DNA of 64,000 nt from Pseudoalteromonas marina. GTDB lineage: Bacteria > Pseudomonadota > Gammaproteobacteria > Enterobacterales > Alteromonadaceae. Below, in pieces: positions 4,007 through 55,118 of this stretch; position 1 is the first letter of the stretch; every line of letters starts with the position of its first letter. The DNA is taken from positions 1 through 64,000 of the forward strand of contig NZ_AHCB03000006.1 in NCBI RefSeq assembly GCF_000238335.3. Direction: 5' to 3'. Below the pieces are notes generated by a model. That model was not told the DNA's origin. It ran no database searches and saw nothing but the letters and a program-made list of their open reading frames with translations. The position numbers and the translations under genes are program-made.

Positions 4007-4093
4007 TGGTGCCCGAGGCCGGACTTGAACCGGCACGACTTGTTAGTCGAGGGATTTTAAATCCCTTGTGTCTACCAATTCCACCACTCGGGC
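4007..4093 (-). tRNA. tRNA-Leu(UAA), third copy
   Basis: 87 bases including an encoded CCA end. The anticodon loop TTTAAAA gives UAA. It has a long class II variable arm. It is the last gene of the eight-tRNA minus-strand cluster. Confidence 0.95.
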
Positions 4094-4131
4094 ATCGAGT
4101 TTGCTAATTAAAGCGCGTGGAGTAAATTATG

Positions 4132-4205
4132 TGGAGGCGGAACCCGGAGTCGAACCGGGGTAAACGGATTTGCAATCCGGTGCATGGCCACTCTGCCATT
4201 CCGCC
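4132..4205 (-). tRNA. tRNA-Cys(GCA), second copy
   Basis: 74 bases with encoded CCA. The anticodon loop TTGCAAA gives GCA. It appears identical in body to the copy at 4817-4890. Confidence 0.95.
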
Positions 4206-4224
4206 TTAACGCTTCCATATAATT

Positions 4225-4300
4225 TGGAGCGGCACACGAGGCTCGAACTCGTGACCTCGACCTTGGCAAGGTCGCGCTCTACCAACTGAGCTAGTGCCGC
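4225..4300 (-). tRNA. tRNA-Gly(GCC), third copy
   Basis: 76 bases with encoded CCA. The anticodon loop reads GCC. It is the first member of the downstream Gly-Cys-Leu unit. Confidence 0.95.
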
Positions 4301-4427
4301 ATAAAACATTATCAGTAATTTGTTCGTTGGTGCGCGACCATGTCGCGGCAAAACGTTCTGGCAACTAAACTAACGCCAAAAATACTAATTTATCAACTTC
4401 AAATTACCTTGGTATGATAATTTAAAG

Positions 4428-4514
4428 TGGTGCCCGAGGCCGGACTTGAACCGGCACGACTTGTTAGTCGAGGGATTTTAAATCCCTTGTGTCTACCAAT
4501 TCCACCACTCGGGC
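4428..4514 (-). tRNA. tRNA-Leu(UAA), second copy
   Basis: 87 bases with encoded CCA, anticodon UAA, same variable arm as the copy at 4007-4093. It follows tRNA-Gly directly: the Cys gene is missing from this unit. Confidence 0.95.
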
Positions 4515-4553
4515 ATCGAGTTTGCTACTTAAAGCAAGTGGATAAAACTAATA

Positions 4554-4629
4554 TGGAGCGGCACACGAGGCTCGAACTCGTGACCTCGACCTTGGCAAGG
4601 TCGCGCTCTACCAACTGAGCTAGTGCCGC
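4554..4629 (-). tRNA. tRNA-Gly(GCC), second copy
   Basis: 76 bases with encoded CCA and anticodon GCC, same body as the other two Gly copies. Confidence 0.95.
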
Positions 4630-4694
4630 ATCATATTAATTCTACTATTACATTTTAAAAGTTATATGTTGGTGCATATAACTAAACCACAAAG

Positions 4695-4780
4695 TGGTGC
4701 CCGAGGCCGGACTTGAACCGGCACACTCTAAGAGCGAGGGATTTTAAATCCCTTGTGTCTACCAATTCCACCACTCGGGC
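4695..4780 (-). tRNA. tRNA-Leu(UAA), first copy, variant variable arm
   Basis: 86 bases with encoded CCA and anticodon UAA. Its variable arm (around CTCTAAGAG) differs and is one base shorter than in the other two Leu copies, while the rest of the body matches. Confidence 0.95.
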
Positions 4781-4816
4781 ATCGAGTTTGCTATTTAAAG
4801 CGCGTGGAGTGTTGAT

Positions 4817-4890
4817 TGGAGGCGGAACCCGGAGTCGAACCGGGGTAAACGGATTTGCAATCCGGTGCATGGCCACTCTGCCATTCCGCC
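4817..4890 (-). tRNA. tRNA-Cys(GCA), first copy
   Basis: 74 bases with encoded CCA and anticodon GCA. Confidence 0.95.
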
Positions 4891-4920
4891 CCAGCACTGG
4901 GGTTATAACCTTAGATAACT

Positions 4921-4996
4921 TGGAGCGGCACACGAGGCTCGAACTCGTGACCTCGACCTTGGCAAGGTCGCGCTCTACCAACTGAGCTAGTGCCGC
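4921..4996 (-). tRNA. tRNA-Gly(GCC), first copy
   Basis: 76 bases with encoded CCA and anticodon GCC. It is the promoter-proximal gene of the cluster. Confidence 0.95.
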
Positions 4997-7557: not shown

Positions 7558-8208
7558 TTAGTACGATACGTCTATGTCAATCATCTTATGACGAATAGCT
7601 AAATGTGTAAGTTCAACATCGCCACCTACATTCAATTTTTCAAACATTCGGTAACGATAGCTATTAACTGTTTTAGAACTGAGGTTTAAGCGCTCTGCAA
7701 TATCTTGTGCTTTTTCACCTTTGGTGATCATAAGCATTATTTGGAGTTCGCGCTCTGATAAGCTCTGGAACGGATTTTCGTCTGTACGACCAGTAACCTG
7801 TGCCAGTGCTATTTGTTGTGCAATTTCAGGCGCGATGTAGCGTTGACCTGCATGGACTGAACGAATGGCACGAACCATTTCATCAGAGCCAGCTCCTTTG
7901 GTAAGAAAGCCGTGTGCACCAATTTGCATTACTTTAGACGGAAATGGGTCTTCGCAATTAACAGTAAGAACGATAATTTTTACATCTGGGCAATAGCGAC
8001 AGATCTTTTTAGTTGCCTCTAATCCACCCATGCCAGGCATATTCATATCCATAAGTACAATATTAGGTGTGTGCTGTCGGCAAAACTGAACAGCGGCTTC
8101 ACCGTCTTTTGCTTCACCTACAACTTTAAACCCACGCACATCATCTAATATGCGTCTGATCCCAGTTCGTACTAGTTCATGATCATCAACTAAAAGTACA
8201 TTAATCAA
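7558..8208 (-). CDS. uvrY: GacA/UvrY response regulator
   Basis: Response regulator of the BarA/UvrY (GacS/GacA) system, which activates Csr/Rsm small RNAs. The 216-residue protein has a receiver domain with D8/D9, phosphoacceptor D54 and K104, then a LuxR-type helix-turn-helix (about 148-210). The start is a TTG: the reading MINVLLVDDHEL aligns fully with E. coli UvrY from its first residue, and there is no in-frame ATG nearby. A probable target, a CsrB-like RNA, lies at about 51.3-51.75 kb. The sensor kinase is not in the window. Confidence 0.95.
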   Translation of the reverse strand: MINVLLVDDHELVRTGIRRILDDVRGFKVVGEAKDGEAAVQFCRQHTPNIVLMDMNMPGMGGLEATKKICRYCPDVKIIVLTVNCEDPFPSKVMQIGAHGFLTKGAGSDEMVRAIRSVHAGQRYIAPEIAQQIALAQVTGRTDENPFQSLSERELQIMLMITKGEKAQDIAERLNLSSKTVNSYRYRMFEKLNVGGDVELTHLAIRHKMIDIDVSY

Positions 8209-41388: not shown

Positions 41389-41465
41389 TGGCGGAGTGGA
41401 CGGGACTCGAACCCGCGACCCCCGGCGTGACAGGCCGGTATTCTAACCAACTGAACTACCACTCC
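41389..41465 (-). tRNA. tRNA-Asp(GUC), copy 7 of 7 in transcription order
   Basis: 77 bases with encoded CCA. The anticodon loop reads GUC and the acceptor stem GGAGUGG/CCACUCC is intact. The body looks identical to the other six. Confidence 0.95.
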
Positions 41466-41518
41466 GCAGTGGTATGTGCATGGGGTAATGCACTTACTAA
41501 TTTTGTTATGATATCAAA

Positions 41519-41595
41519 TGGCGGAGTGGACGGGACTCGAACCCGCGACCCCCGGCGTGACAGGCCGGTATTCTAACCAACTGAACTACCACTCC
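41519..41595 (-). tRNA. tRNA-Asp(GUC), copy 6
   Basis: 77 bases with encoded CCA, anticodon GUC. Confidence 0.95.
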
Positions 41596-41633
41596 GCAGA
41601 GATATCTTTTTTACTTGTCATTACTTAATTTGT

Positions 41634-41710
41634 TGGCGGAGTGGACGGGACTCGAACCCGCGACCCCCGGCGTGACAGGCCGGTATTCTAACCAACTGAA
41701 CTACCACTCC
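41634..41710 (-). tRNA. tRNA-Asp(GUC), copy 5
   Basis: 77 bases with encoded CCA, anticodon GUC. Confidence 0.95.
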
Positions 41711-41748
41711 AGCATACAAATTTTGTAATATAACGTTGTTTAAATAGT

Positions 41749-41825
41749 TGGCGGAGTGGACGGGACTCGAACCCGCGACCCCCGGCGTGACAGGCCGGTA
41801 TTCTAACCAACTGAACTACCACTCC
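41749..41825 (-). tRNA. tRNA-Asp(GUC), copy 4
   Basis: 77 bases with encoded CCA, anticodon GUC. Confidence 0.95.
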
Positions 41826-41856
41826 AGCGCGTATTTAAACTGTTACTTTTTCTTAT

Positions 41857-41933
41857 TGGCGGAGTGGACGGGACTCGAACCCGCGACCCCCGGCGTGACA
41901 GGCCGGTATTCTAACCAACTGAACTACCACTCC
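41857..41933 (-). tRNA. tRNA-Asp(GUC), copy 3
   Basis: 77 bases with encoded CCA, anticodon GUC. Confidence 0.95.
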
Positions 41934-41974
41934 ATAATAAGAATATGTTTTACAACCATATGTTGTGCAAGTGT

Positions 41975-42051
41975 TGGCGGAGTGGACGGGACTCGAACCC
42001 GCGACCCCCGGCGTGACAGGCCGGTATTCTAACCAACTGAACTACCACTCC
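41975..42051 (-). tRNA. tRNA-Asp(GUC), copy 2
   Basis: 77 bases with encoded CCA, anticodon GUC. Confidence 0.95.
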
Positions 42052-42078
42052 AGCGCATACTTACAAATTGTCGAAAAT

Positions 42079-42155
42079 TGGCGGAGTGGACGGGACTCGA
42101 ACCCGCGACCCCCGGCGTGACAGGCCGGTATTCTAACCAACTGAACTACCACTCC
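42079..42155 (-). tRNA. tRNA-Asp(GUC), copy 1, promoter-proximal
   Basis: 77 bases with encoded CCA, anticodon GUC. It lies about 40 bases downstream of a strong promoter. Confidence 0.95.
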
Positions 42156-48272: not shown

Positions 48273-48722
48273 TTAACCTGGGAGCTTTTCAAGCCATGTT
48301 TTTAACCAAGGCTCTGTCACTGGCCAAGGCTCAAAATCTTCACACGCGTCAATTTCTAAACGGTTACCGACAGGCTTTGCTTGTAAATCACGTAATAGTT
48401 CATCAAAGCTTCGACCTGCACCGCAAAAAGTATCACCATAGCTTCTGTCACCCATAGCCACCACTCCAAATGGCTTGTCTGTAAGCATAGGGAAACTACT
48501 ATTAAGTGCATAATATAAGCCAGCTAGGTTACTTGGCACGTCACCCTGTCCTGTCGTTGAGGTAACAATTAATATGTTTGATGCGTTTTTAATATCGTCA
48601 AGCGAAGCCTCTGTGATGACCGCTGCGCTATGACCCGCCTGCTTAATAGTTGCAGCTATATCATCACTTAAACGTTCAGCACCACCATTTACAGTGCCCA
48701 CAAAAATACTAATATGTGCCAT
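48273..48722 (-). CDS. mioC: MioC-like flavodoxin
   Basis: A 149-residue FMN-binding flavodoxin-fold protein from the chosen ATG (MAHISIFVGTVNGGAE). The phosphate loop is VGTVNGGAE, followed by TSTTGQGDVPSN near residue 57 and GDRSYGDTFCGAGR near 88, typical of MioC/YqcA-like flavodoxins. The start overlaps the truC stop (TAATG), which argues against the ATG nine codons upstream. In E. coli yqcA, a related flavodoxin, lies next to truC-yqcC, so this is probably the YqcA equivalent. The name is given by family resemblance. Confidence 0.82.
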   Translation of the reverse strand: MAHISIFVGTVNGGAERLSDDIAATIKQAGHSAAVITEASLDDIKNASNILIVTSTTGQGDVPSNLAGLYYALNSSFPMLTDKPFGVVAMGDRSYGDTFCGAGRSFDELLRDLQAKPVGNRLEIDACEDFEPWPVTEPWLKTWLEKLPG

Positions 48723-49486
48723 TAATAATCCTTCTCTTCGTTTGGCCAACCAAGTTGCTCACAAATCTGTAGCATATCATGTCCTAGTGGCGCTTTAATC
48801 GTTATTGCTTTGTTGGTGTAAGGGTGCACAAAACTCAGCTCAGTTGCAAACAGCATTAAGCGTCGTAATTCAAAATACTCCCTAAAAAATTGGTTATGTT
48901 GATTGTCGCCATGATTAACATCACCAATTATTGGTAATGATAAATGTTTTAAATGCCGGCGAATCTGATGCTTGCGCCCTGTCTTAGGAAAACACTCAAC
49001 TAATGAGTACCTAACCGTTGGGTATTTGCCTATTGGAATGGGTAATGCAGCTTGGTACAAACAATTAAACTGAGTTTGCGCCTCCTGTGGTGCTTTATTC
49101 TGATCTGCAAATTTATCGGCAATTTTATCAAGCTCTTCTTTTAAAGGCTTATCTAAAAAAACCGAATCAGGGGCAAATCCGCGTACTAGAGCTAAATATC
49201 GCTTAGCAATAGTACCTTCAATGAATAACTGATTCATATCGCGCGCGGCTTCAGAGCTTAAAGCAAATAGCAGCACACCCGACGTAGGTCTATCTAGCCT
49301 GTGAACTGGAAACACATGTTGCCCTAACTGATCGCGCAACATTTGCATCGCAAATTGAGTTTCATGTTTATCTAAAAAGGAACGATGTACCAATAGCCCT
49401 GACGGTTTATTAATGGCTACAAAGTTTTCGTCTTGATACAAAATGTCGAGTTCGCCGTATTCAATAGGCGCTAGGCGCTCACTCAT
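48722..49486 (-). CDS. truC: tRNA pseudouridine(65) synthase
   Basis: RluA-family pseudouridine synthase acting on U65 of several tRNAs. The 254-residue protein has the catalytic Asp in PVHRLDRPTSGVLLFA (near residues 58-73), a KRYLALVRG stretch near 100 and GRKHQIRRH near 165. The order yqcC-truC-flavodoxin matches E. coli yqcC-truC-yqcA. Overlaps yqcC at its start by eight bases and the flavodoxin at its end by one. Confidence 0.93.
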   Translation of the reverse strand: MSERLAPIEYGELDILYQDENFVAINKPSGLLVHRSFLDKHETQFAMQMLRDQLGQHVFPVHRLDRPTSGVLLFALSSEAARDMNQLFIEGTIAKRYLALVRGFAPDSVFLDKPLKEELDKIADKFADQNKAPQEAQTQFNCLYQAALPIPIGKYPTVRYSLVECFPKTGRKHQIRRHLKHLSLPIIGDVNHGDNQHNQFFREYFELRRLMLFATELSFVHPYTNKAITIKAPLGHDMLQICEQLGWPNEEKDY

Positions 49487-49805
49487 GCGGTTTTCCTAAT
49501 AGTGCATCTAGCTGTGTCAGCACCTCTATAATTTCATTTCCACCTGATTTATTAATCAAGGTCATTTGCGCCATGGGGGCAATTGCAAAGTTTCGCGGTA
49601 ATGGTTGCTTATAAGTAATCAAATGCTGCATTTTTTCAATAAAGACAAACTGTAGCCACTGCTCAAACGCCATCGAATCGTGACAAAAGGGAACACTAGA
49701 ATTTAGTGCCTCTGCTGAAATTGGCTCACATTGCCAAAGTTGATGCTTTTGTAATAGCGCTTTTAATTGCACTAAATAAGCTTGGGTCTGTTGGAACATA
49801 ACCAC
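49479..49805 (-). CDS. yqcC: YqcC family protein
   Basis: A 108-residue helical protein of the YqcC (DUF446) family, function unknown. Typical is the helical start VQLKALLQKHQLW and the FIEKMQHLI stretch near residue 60. Translation may begin at the first Met or at the second (two codons later, MFQQ). Overlaps truC by eight bases, an arrangement conserved in gammaproteobacteria. Confidence 0.88.
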   Translation of the reverse strand: MVMFQQTQAYLVQLKALLQKHQLWQCEPISAEALNSSVPFCHDSMAFEQWLQFVFIEKMQHLITYKQPLPRNFAIAPMAQMTLINKSGGNEIIEVLTQLDALLGKPHE

Positions 49806-49904
49806 CCTCTTTATAAGTTATGCAGCAATTATACCCTGTTCCCACAAAGCTCGCTATGGCGTATAATTAGTGCAATTTTGCAGTTAAAAACAATCGGGAA
49901 AACA

Positions 49905-50933
49905 ATGAGTGATCAAATAGCAACCTTAGGCCAACTTTTAGATGGTGCTGGCACGCAATGGCGGGCTTTTGATATTGGCAGGCACATTACTAAACTCGAT
50001 AAACAACAGTTTTTAGCTATTGAACAAGCCCAAGTACCTTACCCTTATCCGCTTGCTGGTCATGCGTGGCTAGCAATTCAGTTCTGGGATGCCAAAGCGA
50101 GCAAAGAACCCTATGTGTGGTTTTTAAAATTTCCGCTAGATGAGCAAAGTAAACTAGTTAGTGCAAGTCGTGATCACTTTGCCGATATGGTTGTTCAAGC
50201 TCTTGGCACTGAAATTACAGGTGAAAAAGCAGATGGTAAGCTTGATAACAATCCTTATGTGTTTACGCCTAATGCAAATAAACTGGCTGCATTTAACGCG
50301 CAAGTTAAAGTGTTACTAAAGCAACCTGCTTCACAATATTACGAATACGCTCAGCTATACTTTAGTGCAAAGTTAGGCTTTGATAATTGGCAAAGTGTGG
50401 CACTACAAGGCATTGCTGATTTTGCGCTGCGCCTAGATAACGATCAAAACTTAAGTAACTTACAAAAAGCCTGGGCACATTTACCCCTTGAAGTATTGCA
50501 GCCACTAAGTGCAATGCTTGAACATGTTGCAATACCATCAACACTGAGTGAGCTTTTACTCGCGCAGGGTCAAACAGCTATTAATAATAGTGATACTATA
50601 GTTTTAACCGCTGCACTACGCTCAATGTCTAAGGGTCAGGCACAAGGTTTATGCGCGCAGCTTGTTGATGCAACATTGAATTCAGCTCTTAAAAGCGACT
50701 CTGACGTACTTTTAACAATTGCTGGGCGTTGTTTTGTTCAGTTAGAAGACCCTGAACGATTGCATATATTTATGGATAATTGTGCTCAACATCAAAAAAT
50801 AGAGGCGCTTTTTCCAAGTATTTTTGCTGACTTAGTTGCAATACCGACCATTCGACCTCACCTATTAGGTTTATTACGAAAAGAAGATCGAAGCGAAGCC
50901 CTCGCTCGTGCAATTGGAAGGTTATTCTCTTAA
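49905..50933 (+). CDS. DUF3549 family protein
   Basis: A 342-residue cytoplasmic protein of the DUF3549 family seen in Shewanella, Vibrio and relatives; function unknown. The start MSDQIATLGQLLDGAGTQWR matches family N-termini. A longer in-frame opening upstream overlaps yqcC and is rejected. The C-terminal half is helix-rich with repeats of LL and A-rich helices and a final RSEALARAIGRLFS. It is followed directly by a DUF3301 gene, with the next ATG immediately after the stop, so the two form an operon divergent from yqcC-truC. Confidence 0.85.
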   Translation: MSDQIATLGQLLDGAGTQWRAFDIGRHITKLDKQQFLAIEQAQVPYPYPLAGHAWLAIQFWDAKASKEPYVWFLKFPLDEQSKLVSASRDHFADMVVQALGTEITGEKADGKLDNNPYVFTPNANKLAAFNAQVKVLLKQPASQYYEYAQLYFSAKLGFDNWQSVALQGIADFALRLDNDQNLSNLQKAWAHLPLEVLQPLSAMLEHVAIPSTLSELLLAQGQTAINNSDTIVLTAALRSMSKGQAQGLCAQLVDATLNSALKSDSDVLLTIAGRCFVQLEDPERLHIFMDNCAQHQKIEALFPSIFADLVAIPTIRPHLLGLLRKEDRSEALARAIGRLFS

Positions 50934-51233
50934 ATGGCAAGTTTATGGACGTTTATATTAATTGGTAGTGTTATTTATTTGTTTTGGCTAAATAGAAAAG
51001 TCGCCGAAGCGGCTAATGTTCATGCTAAACGTCAATGTGAGCAATTAAATGTGCAACTTATGAGTGTTGCGTGCACTAAGCGCCGTTTTGGTTTTCTAAA
51101 AAGTGGTAAACCGGGAATAAAAAGTGAGTTTTCATTTGAGTTTTCAAGTGACGGTGAAAATGCGTATCAGGGAATGCTTATTATGGAAAATGAGTTTTTA
51201 AAAAGTGTTGTCGTTCCACCACACAAAATCTAA
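50934..51233 (+). CDS. DUF3301 domain membrane protein
   Basis: A 99-residue protein with one N-terminal membrane helix (residues 3-19, ending YLFWLNRK) and a cytoplasmic part carrying RQCEQLNVQLMSVAC, characteristic of DUF3301. Function unknown. The start codon directly follows the DUF3549 stop, so translation is coupled. The csrB-like RNA terminator lies just downstream on the opposite strand and may also end this transcript. Confidence 0.85.
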   Translation: MASLWTFILIGSVIYLFWLNRKVAEAANVHAKRQCEQLNVQLMSVACTKRRFGFLKSGKPGIKSEFSFEFSSDGENAYQGMLIMENEFLKSVVVPPHKI

Positions 51234-51280: not shown

Positions 51281-51752
51281 AAAAAACTAAGGCGTAACTA
51301 AAGTTACGCCCCAATTGGACTGCTTCCTGCTAGATATCCACTATCTATAATCCGTTTTTTCATCCCCTGAACGAGTAAACAACCTTGTTTACCCTCACAT
51401 TGCCTCATGCAATATCCATCGCCACCTTGGCAAACCCGCGTAAACTAACGCTTGGCTAAATCTATAGCATCATCCATGTTAATCCTTTGAAGTAGCGCCC
51501 TGCCACTTTGTGCTTCCTGCGTTGTCCCTTTGCTTTCCAAGCATTCACGTGCAACCTAGTACGTGGCTGCGTCCTGCAGCTTTAATCCTTTATATCCTTG
51601 AAGTAGCTCCTGCCACTTAGTGCGTCTTGCACTTCCTATTCATCCTTGCTGTCCTTGTTAACTTGTCCTTTTTGCATCCTGCTAGCATCTGCTATTTTGC
51701 CTATTCCTTATCCATGGCAGTAGCTTATTCATTAAGCTATGTCTTCTTGACA
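51281..51752 (-). ncRNA. csrB: CsrB-like CsrA-sequestering small RNA
   Basis: Untranslated RNA expected to bind and titrate CsrA/RsmA. On the minus strand about 20 GGA triplets occur in some 390 bases (51325-51713), many as AGGA or AGGAUG. Several sit in hairpin loops: AAGTGGC-AGGA-GCTACTT (51601-51618), GCTGC-AGGAC-GCAGC (51566-51580), TGCTT-GGA-AAGCA (51531-51543) and AAGTGGC-AGGGC-GCTACTT (51490-51508). It ends in a strong terminator. It lies between yqcC-truC and syd, as E. coli csrB does. The 5' end is estimated from a -10-like TAAACT at 51759-51764 and is uncertain by about 20 bases. Confidence 0.88.
51284..51313 (-). terminator. Terminator of the CsrB-like RNA
   Basis: On the minus strand GGCGTAACT-N2-AGTTACGCC followed by TTAGTTTTTT. 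The palindrome could also stop DUF3301 transcription from the other side. Confidence 0.85.
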
Positions 51753-51864
51753 AGTTAAAGTTTAGAGTAAACGAGAGGAGGAAGTAGTATGTGAGACAAA
51801 ATAATTCTTTGTCATAAAAATTAAAAAATCAATAAATTAATATTAAACATGCACTTAAATAAAA

Positions 51865-51888
51865 AAAGGCGACCAATTGGCCACCTTT
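51865..51888 (-). terminator. Terminator of the GNAT gene
   Basis: On the minus strand 11-base arms AAAGGTGGCCA/TGGTCGCCTTT (two G-U pairs) followed by seven Ts, about 90 bases beyond the acetyltransferase stop and ahead of the CsrB-like RNA. Confidence 0.8.
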
Positions 51889-51909
51889 AACTGATTACTC
51901 TCACGTTAA

Positions 51910-51927
51910 TGTAAGATATATCGCACG
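51910..51927. promoter_or_regulatory. Weak GacA-box-like site upstream of csrB-like RNA
   Basis: TGTAAG-N6-CGCACG has one perfect half of the GacA/UvrY consensus TGTAAG-N6-CTTACA and a poor second half. It lies about 160 bases upstream of the estimated RNA start. E. coli UvrY also acts from a far-upstream site. Only suggestive. Confidence 0.25.
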
Positions 51928-51976: not shown

Positions 51977-52621
51977 TTAACCCGATGCACTTTTAAACAG
52001 TAACTCACCAGCAACTTGGTTAAACGTGAGCTGTTTAAAAGTCAAAAATCCTTCAGATTTAAAAAGTTCTGTATGCTCACTACGCGTTACAAATACTGCC
52101 AATCCAGAAGACTCACTATTTGCCTTTACCAGCTCATCAAGCCCTCTGAGTAAATACCGACCAAACCCTTGACCATGAAAATGCGGATCCACTGCAATAA
52201 AAGCTAAAAAGTAATAACGGCCTTTTTCTTTTAGTGTATCTCTAATAGTTTGTTCTTTTTCTATTAACTGGTTAGTTTGTAAGTAACCCGCACTCAGCAT
52301 TAATTTTAAGCGCCAATGCCAATAACGCTGAGCTTGAAGTTGACTTAAAGAATCAAACATACAGGCCACTGCTTTTAATTTGCCACTGCGATAAAGCCCT
52401 ATTAGTGGTTGCTTTTCTTGCCAAAAACTACTGAGTTCTTCACGTATTAATGCTCGTAACTTTTTCTCGTAAACGGCTTTATTTTTTCCATCATAACCTA
52501 GCATTGTTTTTAGTACAGGGTCATCATGGTATGCCTGATAAATTAAACTTGCGGCAGTGCTTATATCTTCTGCTTCAATGTATTGTACGCTGAACGTTTC
52601 TTCTTGTGCGGTTATACTCAT
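51977..52621 (-). CDS. GNAT family N-acetyltransferase
   Basis: A 214-residue acetyl-CoA-dependent acyltransferase. Motif A is visible as AVDPHFHGQGFGRYLLRGL (near residues 143-161) with the pyrophosphate-binding Q/R-x2-G-x-G pattern as HGQGFG, and motif B as FVTRSEHTELFKSEGF near 180. The N-terminal half has the TAASLIYQAYHDDP start typical of GCN5-like proteins that act on small molecules. The substrate is unknown. Single-gene unit. Confidence 0.85.
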   Translation of the reverse strand: MSITAQEETFSVQYIEAEDISTAASLIYQAYHDDPVLKTMLGYDGKNKAVYEKKLRALIREELSSFWQEKQPLIGLYRSGKLKAVACMFDSLSQLQAQRYWHWRLKLMLSAGYLQTNQLIEKEQTIRDTLKEKGRYYFLAFIAVDPHFHGQGFGRYLLRGLDELVKANSESSGLAVFVTRSEHTELFKSEGFLTFKQLTFNQVAGELLFKSASG

Positions 52622-54519: not shown

Positions 54520-55059
54520 TTATACTTCAAGCGCTTTTAAAAACGACTCTATATTTGGTGCAAGTACATGGTGCGTTTTTTTACCGACGTGCTCTAGACA
54601 CACCTCTCCAGAATGAATTAACACACTGACCAGTAAATCTTCTTTATCTGTTAAACCAATAAACACAGTTTCGGGTTGTTTTAGCTTTCGTTTCATTAAA
54701 ACATGACCAGTGATGTTTTGTTGAAGCATATCGAAGTCGTCTCTATTCCATGCTTGCAACAGTTCAATTTGATGTCCGTCAATAATTGCCAATACGCTAC
54801 CACCGTACATGTGCCCATAAAGTTCGCTTAACGCTGTTGGAAACTCAAGCTCTAATGCCTTAGCTAAATTGTTTAATGAGCCTGCTGGCTGCTGACGTAC
54901 GCCTTGCCATTGAATATTTCCTTGCTCGTCAACCTCGCCTAGCTCACACGGACTCGGCCATTGTTCATCGTGTGCTATAAGTGGGTACTTAGCAGTGTTT
55001 TTGAGGGTGTTTTCGCTAAATTGATGGTGAAGTTGTTCTAAAAGCAATGCTACAGACAT
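54520..55059 (-). CDS. syd: SecY-interacting protein Syd
   Basis: Cytoplasmic protein that binds SecY and is thought to monitor translocon assembly. From the chosen ATG (MSVALLLEQLHHQF) it is 179 residues, close to E. coli Syd (181); 19 codons upstream are open but unlike Syd. Typical segments are ALSELYGHMYGGSVL near residue 75 and EVDEQGNIQWQGVRQ near 42. Divergent from queF, as in E. coli, with the csrB-like RNA and yqcC on the other side, a conserved neighbourhood. Confidence 0.92.
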   Translation of the reverse strand: MSVALLLEQLHHQFSENTLKNTAKYPLIAHDEQWPSPCELGEVDEQGNIQWQGVRQQPAGSLNNLAKALELEFPTALSELYGHMYGGSVLAIIDGHQIELLQAWNRDDFDMLQQNITGHVLMKRKLKQPETVFIGLTDKEDLLVSVLIHSGEVCLEHVGKKTHHVLAPNIESFLKALEV

Positions 55060-55118
55060 ACTGTGAAACTCATTTAAATTAGATATAATGCGCACATTGT
55101 AACTATTTAAGAGCAAAC

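Follow-up and report, generated by a model that had tools for sequence, protein, structure and literature searches.

The minus strand between positions 51281 and 51751 of the window, the whole 64,000-nucleotide stretch of Pseudoalteromonas marina DNA analyzed here, almost certainly encodes a CsrA-sequestering sRNA of the CsrB type that is the ortholog of Pf1. The gene is thus already known, as Pf1 of the sister species P. fuliginea. The RNA of the window is one more member of a studied family, and the interesting part lies in the history of its locus and in its giant relatives.

A GGA-rich gene and its identity with Pf1

The initial annotation had read this stretch as a CsrB-type regulatory RNA with dense GGA motifs on the minus strand, and that reading is supported by its being the syntenic ortholog of Pf1, a studied Csr sRNA. 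Between 51281 and 51752 there are 21 GGA motifs on the minus strand versus 1 on the plus strand, and none of 2000 dinucleotide shuffles of the same stretch (mean 10.7, sd 2.4, maximum 20) reaches 21, which bears out the claimed density. Mononucleotide shuffles (mean 13.1) reach 24 GGA, and part of the excess is thus a matter of purine-rich composition. The sRNA is the densest 400-nt stretch of GGA in the window (21), with runners-up of 13 on the plus strand (a tRNA array) and 9 on the minus strand, and scanning the 64 kb for clusters on either strand returned no second one of at least nine GGA. The parts of the element and its immediate surroundings are as follows:

51281..51751, minus strand: Csr sRNA gene (very probable Pf1 ortholog), ~471 nt with 21 GGA, the 5′ end being placed by the promoter block
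51285..51316, minus strand: intrinsic terminator, a 14-pair stem with a T-run after it
51759..51764, minus strand: putative -10 element TAAACT, placed by inference, of a block present in 19 of 61 genus loci
51865..51888, minus strand: terminator of the upstream GNAT gene, between the Gac box and the sRNA promoter
51910..51927, minus strand: UvrY/GacA-type box CGTGCGATATATCTTACA, 176 nt upstream of the presumed sRNA start

The strong terminator that had been noted after the GGA motifs is indeed there, and its helix is paired at 98.8% across 23 aligned orthologs. Upstream of the sRNA, a TAAACT-N7-GTCAAG block points to a start near 51751, in agreement with the 5′ end proposed earlier at 51752; of 61 genus loci, 19 have a block of this kind and 46 have the start motif TCAAGA. 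The box CGTGCGATATATCTTACA has 3 mismatches to the Pf1 box, and the relaxed box matches the own genome at just one other site. A MicX match at 51820-51901 was rejected as nothing other than the terminator of the GNAT gene, and permissive Rfam matches on the plus strand (E 4.5-10) were taken as chance. Elsewhere, the window carries seven tandem tRNA genes with equal scores at 41392-42155 (the four shown are identical, with a GTC anticodon as judged by eye), and a further eight tRNAs lie at 4010-4996.

Pf1 is an experimentally studied Csr sRNA of P. fuliginea BSW20308 (PMC9927453, PMC11882849; statements from cited papers refer, here and below, to their accessible parts). Its promoters are reported to drive GFP and its overexpression to alter glycogen in E. 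coli, on account of which its authors hold that it binds CsrA (PMC9927453); knockout effects are also reported, and its GGA count is given as 21 in the 2023 paper (PMC9927453) and 25 in the 2025 paper (PMC11882849). We located the published 18-nt Pf1 GacA box, as an exact match, in P. fuliginea KMM 216 (L060), inside the ortholog of the gap that holds the window sRNA. With one mismatch allowed, it has a single match in genome G069, at the same position as in KMM 216 contig0001, and the KMM 216 ortholog has 25 GGA, equal to the 2025 figure. The location of the box, the uniqueness of the match and the motif count therefore mark the window RNA as the Pf1 ortholog. The two share their place by synteny (the GNAT-DUF3301 gap), the exact published box in the KMM 216 ortholog, the same terminator and 80% identity between the window and KMM 216 over 689 nt, upstream DNA included; they differ in that the window has 21 GGA versus 25 and an eroded module pair. 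Occurrences of the Pf1 box in L061 and L062 were rejected as chance, with GGA versus TCC counts of 9 versus 10 and 23 versus 13 and hence no one-sided excess, and that in L059 (EB27) lies beside another GGA-rich stretch rather than beside this locus. As a separate observation, the genome of the window displays a second Csr-type cluster (G000:C6:303056-303651; L161:2765-3152) of 25 GGA in 388 nt, with the box CGTGAGATATCTCTTACA upstream, between two ORFs of which one resembles, by eye, an iron ABC solute-binding protein; this is possibly the ortholog of Pf2 or Pf3.

Under the proposed mechanism, the BarA-UvrY (GacS-GacA) system would activate the sRNA from the box 176 nt upstream, an RNA of ~471 nt would run to the terminator at 51285, and its many GGA motifs would bind CsrA and draw it off target mRNAs; the number of these motifs would shift as copies of an internal tandem module are gained or lost. 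For this strain we infer transcription, the start site and CsrA binding, and the window RNA probably sequesters CsrA. The traits of the CsrB class seen here are ~20 GGA (21), a Rho-independent terminator and a host with CsrA, UvrY/GacA and BarA/GacS: the response regulator is encoded in the window itself (394 bits against a curated cut-off of 280), and the genome also has csrA, as well as barA at 1154 bits.

The covariance search proposed with the initial annotation did not bear out an Rfam assignment. At gathering cut-offs the window gave no CsrB hit, and the permissive match of Rfam CsrB (RF00018) to the sRNA scores 19.1 bits versus a cut-off of 71; we therefore file the RNA as CsrB-type only, not as RF00018. 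A CsrB search of its own genome at E 0.001 likewise returned nothing. Among 20 further loci scanned with Rfam (19 from the genus and the second cluster of the own genome), there were four sub-threshold CsrB and two sub-threshold CsrC matches, and 13 of the 20 had no Rfam match at E 0.1. At one of the 20 loci (L123:887-1048, plus strand), TwoAYGGAY, which belongs to the same Rfam clan as CsrB, exceeds its cut-off, but does so on the opposite strand from the sRNA and at a distance of some 400 nt.

The locus and its relation to csrB

The initial annotation had likened the gene context to that of E. coli, in which csrB lies between syd and yqcC. The genes that bear on this likeness, together with the response regulator, are:

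7570..8208, minus strand: uvrY/gacA response regulator
48273..48719, minus strand: flavodoxin, at the place of yqcA
48722..49486, minus strand: truC-like pseudouridine synthase
49479..49805, minus strand: yqcC (DUF446)
49782..50933, plus strand: protein that we take to be of the DUF3549 type, a syntenic anchor
50934..51233, plus strand: DUF3301 protein, convergent with the sRNA, a syntenic anchor
51977..52621, minus strand: GNAT acetyltransferase, a syntenic anchor
54520..55116, minus strand: syd

The E. coli order is yqcA-truC-yqcC-csrB-syd, all on one strand; that of the window is flavodoxin-truC-yqcC, two convergent genes, the sRNA, GNAT, three further ORFs and syd, with the sRNA on the same strand as yqcC and syd. 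The E. coli-like context thus holds, but is looser than had been claimed, as yqcC is 1.5 kb off with two genes between and syd 2.8 kb off with four ORFs between. Compared directly, the window RNA and E. coli CsrB (RF00018) both have many GGA (21 and 22), both lie between yqcC and syd on the same strand as these, and both have a UvrY-type box upstream, at 176 nt in the window versus an exact box at 191 nt in E. coli; they differ in showing little sequence similarity and in the two genes that the window adds on the yqcC side and the four ORFs on the syd side. Other members of the functional class are set up differently. The V. cholerae CsrB, CsrC and CsrD RNAs are likewise Csr sponges (28, 23 and 23 GGA), but come as three Csr RNAs (PMC6550530). 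Aln1a-c of Alteromonas macleodii Te101, another marine gammaproteobacterium, are also Csr-type sponges, but here three RNAs, each with its own start, share a 404-nt gap between other genes (PMC5864184), and syd goes unmentioned in the accessible part of that paper.

We surveyed CsrB across 119 genomes of the order, of which 62 had a match and 57 of these were tallied; the tally comprises 141 hits, with 9 of 150 listed rows, all extra hits in four already counted genomes, omitted. In 21 of the 57 tallied genomes, from 7 of 14 families, Rfam CsrB has a hit no more than 10 kb from yqcC or syd, where chance would place ~1.3 of the 141 tallied hits. In 13 of those 21 genomes CsrB lies between the two genes, and in each of the 21 the RNA and the anchor gene share the same orientation (strands as read from tables). 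All four genomes of one of these families, f18, show the compact gene order of E. coli. Two loci of a single family, both over the Rfam cut-off, read DUF3549-DUF3301-csrB. In the window's own family, two genomes from another genus, neither with a CsrB match, read GNAT-GGA cluster-DUF3301-DUF3549-yqcC, as in the window. In the other 7 of the 14 families with tallied CsrB hits, none is near yqcC or syd, and 7 of 11 extra genomes have no cluster at the locus (4 have one); the locus is therefore common, not universal, in the order.

The position of the window RNA makes it very likely that it goes back to the ancestral csrB of the order and has diverged in sequence beyond recognition. The Pf1 papers propose de novo emergence (PMC9927453, PMC11882849), although PMC9927453 leaves room for shared ancestry. 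That an RNA of the same function arose de novo in Pseudoalteromonas, the csrB neighborhood being coincidental as its discoverers suggest, strikes us as improbable. It would agree with the lack of a sequence match outside the genus in the accessible parts of the Pf1 papers (PMC9927453, PMC11882849), with the weak Rfam score of 19.1 bits and with the half of the CsrB-bearing families that have their hits elsewhere. It fits poorly, however, with a strand and neighbors that are the same as those of E. coli csrB and a similar box distance, with CsrB near yqcC or syd in far more genomes than the ~1.3 hits expected, and with the intermediates, namely Rfam-recognized CsrB beside DUF3301-DUF3549 and same-order GGA clusters in another genus of the family. 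The match to the E. coli csrB locus and the Csr-type RNAs at that place in several other families thus speak against the published de novo origin, and the locus evidence favors shared ancestry.

Spread and conservation in the genus

By sequence, Pf1 is reported from 252 of 672 genomes (PMC9927453, PMC11882849), and our own nucleotide search gave hits in 20 of the 35 other genomes of the genus, in some of them no more than short pieces; those in G040 and G055, 33-35 nt long, were set aside. By position, a cluster of at least 12 GGA is present in 108 of 108 genus genomes, the own genome included: in 101 of the others it lies at most 3.3 kb from the DUF3301 gene (median 106 nt) on the expected strand, and in six beside the GNAT gene. 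Ten first-choice regions (seven without a cluster, three cut at an edge) had been exchanged for wider or GNAT-anchored ones, and four of the 108 loci are cut by contig ends. A loss of the motifs from the same gap of relatives, which would have counted against the initial annotation, is thus nowhere seen in the genus, and the picture outside the genus is mixed. In 101 of the 108 loci, versus 1 of 108 in a reversed control, the first GGA is preceded at 140-235 nt by a Gac-like box (at most 3 of 15 positions mismatched); contig ends truncate 4 of the 7 loci without it. With a loose pattern, a terminator like that of the window was found in 77 of the 108. One genome (L124) has a second GGA cluster of 23 beside its main one of 31.

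Conservation was gauged in the window clade, comprising 48 loci, the window included, with DUF3301 proteins at least 80% identical. One of these is cut by a contig end; the remaining 47 reduce to 25 non-redundant loci at 93%, of which 23 were aligned and two with a third module left out. The GGA triplets of the window are conserved at 71% versus 34% for other triplets, and none of 10,000 random draws was as high (based on 18 GGA triplets outside the terminator, in columns of at least 12 rows). The fold of the whole sRNA has z = -3.6. Across the 23 orthologs, 20 of 49 pairs have changed on both sides versus 8.6 in shuffles, and eight helices have 97.5% of their cells paired, with no slid register coming near; RNAalifold had derived these helices from the very alignment that was tested, and one 4-pair long-range helix was dropped before the count. 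The number of further pair types did not depart significantly from shuffles (43 versus 40.0, 48/500). One of the covarying hairpins is:

51566..51580, minus strand: hairpin GCTGC-AGGAC-GCAGC with GGA in the loop, each of its five pairs showing a compensatory change in at least one ortholog

The earlier statement that several GGA lie in hairpin loops is literally true of the window sRNA (4 of 21, in stems of at least 4 bp), but this number is not above chance for this single sequence, shuffles with the GGA held fixed giving a mean of 2.7 (sd 1.6).

These data also bear on readings in which there is no separate sRNA. A GGA-rich 3′ UTR or attenuator of a neighboring mRNA could be imagined, as the GNAT gene upstream shares the strand and stops ~225 nt short of the presumed sRNA start; yet the terminator at 51888-51865 separates that gene, a box stands upstream of the RNA in 101 of the 108 genus loci and the Pf1 promoter is reported to be active (PMC9927453), leaving this reading very improbable. 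We give practically no credence to a purine-rich chance sequence or an unrecognized coding region, which the composition and the mononucleotide shuffles with up to 24 GGA might suggest, against the failure of all 2000 dinucleotide shuffles, the conserved GGA, the covariation, the lack of any ORF of at least 60 aa within the sRNA gap and module periods (79, 80, 88 and 110) that are not multiples of three (81 and 87 are).

Tandem modules and giant relatives

The separate CsrB-type sRNA carries the remnants of an internal duplication:

51594..51630, minus strand: repeat, first copy, remnant of a ~110-nt tandem module
51482..51520, minus strand: repeat, second copy, at a period of 110

The two copies are 85% identical over 39 nt (E 1e-6). 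The growth by internal duplication suggested earlier from a unit of ~40 bases is hence confirmed and larger than was claimed, the short copies being what is left of the module. In KMM 216 the pair is still complete (82% over 114 nt, period 107), and three copies are present in L068 and L073. Judged by span, the 47 uncut loci of the window clade have one module in 32 cases, two in 11 and three in 4.

Across the 104 uncut genus loci, the GGA number ranges from 18 to 80, with at least 50 in 19 loci; one of these 19, L228 (65 GGA over 1241 nt), is perhaps two RNAs. Two clades display 51-80 GGA in 0.67-1.05 kb, and the giant loci have three to four times the usual number of motifs. In six giants examined (L204, L205, L199, L178, L186 and L184; 69-80 GGA), TRF found 6.7 to 9.3 copies of a 79-88-nt unit behind a single upstream box, and in five of them a terminator scan detected a single terminator, at the end, versus none in L178. 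Three of the six are on contigs over 4 Mb, and assembly error is therefore unlikely there. In L199, 28 of 74 GGA lie in hairpin loops versus 10.4 in shuffles (maximum 23), chiefly CGCTT-AGGAG-AAGCG and GAGTC-AGGAT-GACTC. In a quick GNAT tree of 93 loci, the giants fall into two starred clades of 8 and 10 rows, with L228 besides on a long branch, and close neighbors in the tree differ in copy number. In another family, the yqcC-syd interval of L218 has 53 GGA over 1219 nt; its reading as a single giant RNA was rejected, since three boxes and two terminators indicate tandem Csr genes.

Published counts for RNAs of this class are 22 for E. coli, 28 for V. cholerae (PMC6550530) and 25 for Pf1 (PMC11882849). 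The 51-80 GGA of the giants are far above the 22-28 of these counts, and so we propose that the dose of the sponge is set by repeat copy number. It appears likely that the Pf1 locus is the ancestral csrB evolving as a tandem-repeat sponge, with modules gained and lost behind one fixed UvrY box.

The match to the csrB locus, the presence in 108 of 108 genomes and the amplification of modules up to the giants go beyond the accessible parts of the Pf1 papers (PMC9927453, PMC11882849); earlier reports of csrB synteny or of giant Csr RNAs may exist elsewhere in the literature. Gene neighborhood indicates csrB orthologs that escape both sequence comparison and Rfam, which at its cut-offs missed the RNA in the window as well as in the 19 loci of the genus that were scanned, and the csrB neighborhood bears on the origin of Pf1, which has been stated to be an open question. 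With 18 to 80 GGA at one locus, the genus offers a natural series in which sponge capacity can be tested against repeat number and CsrA level.
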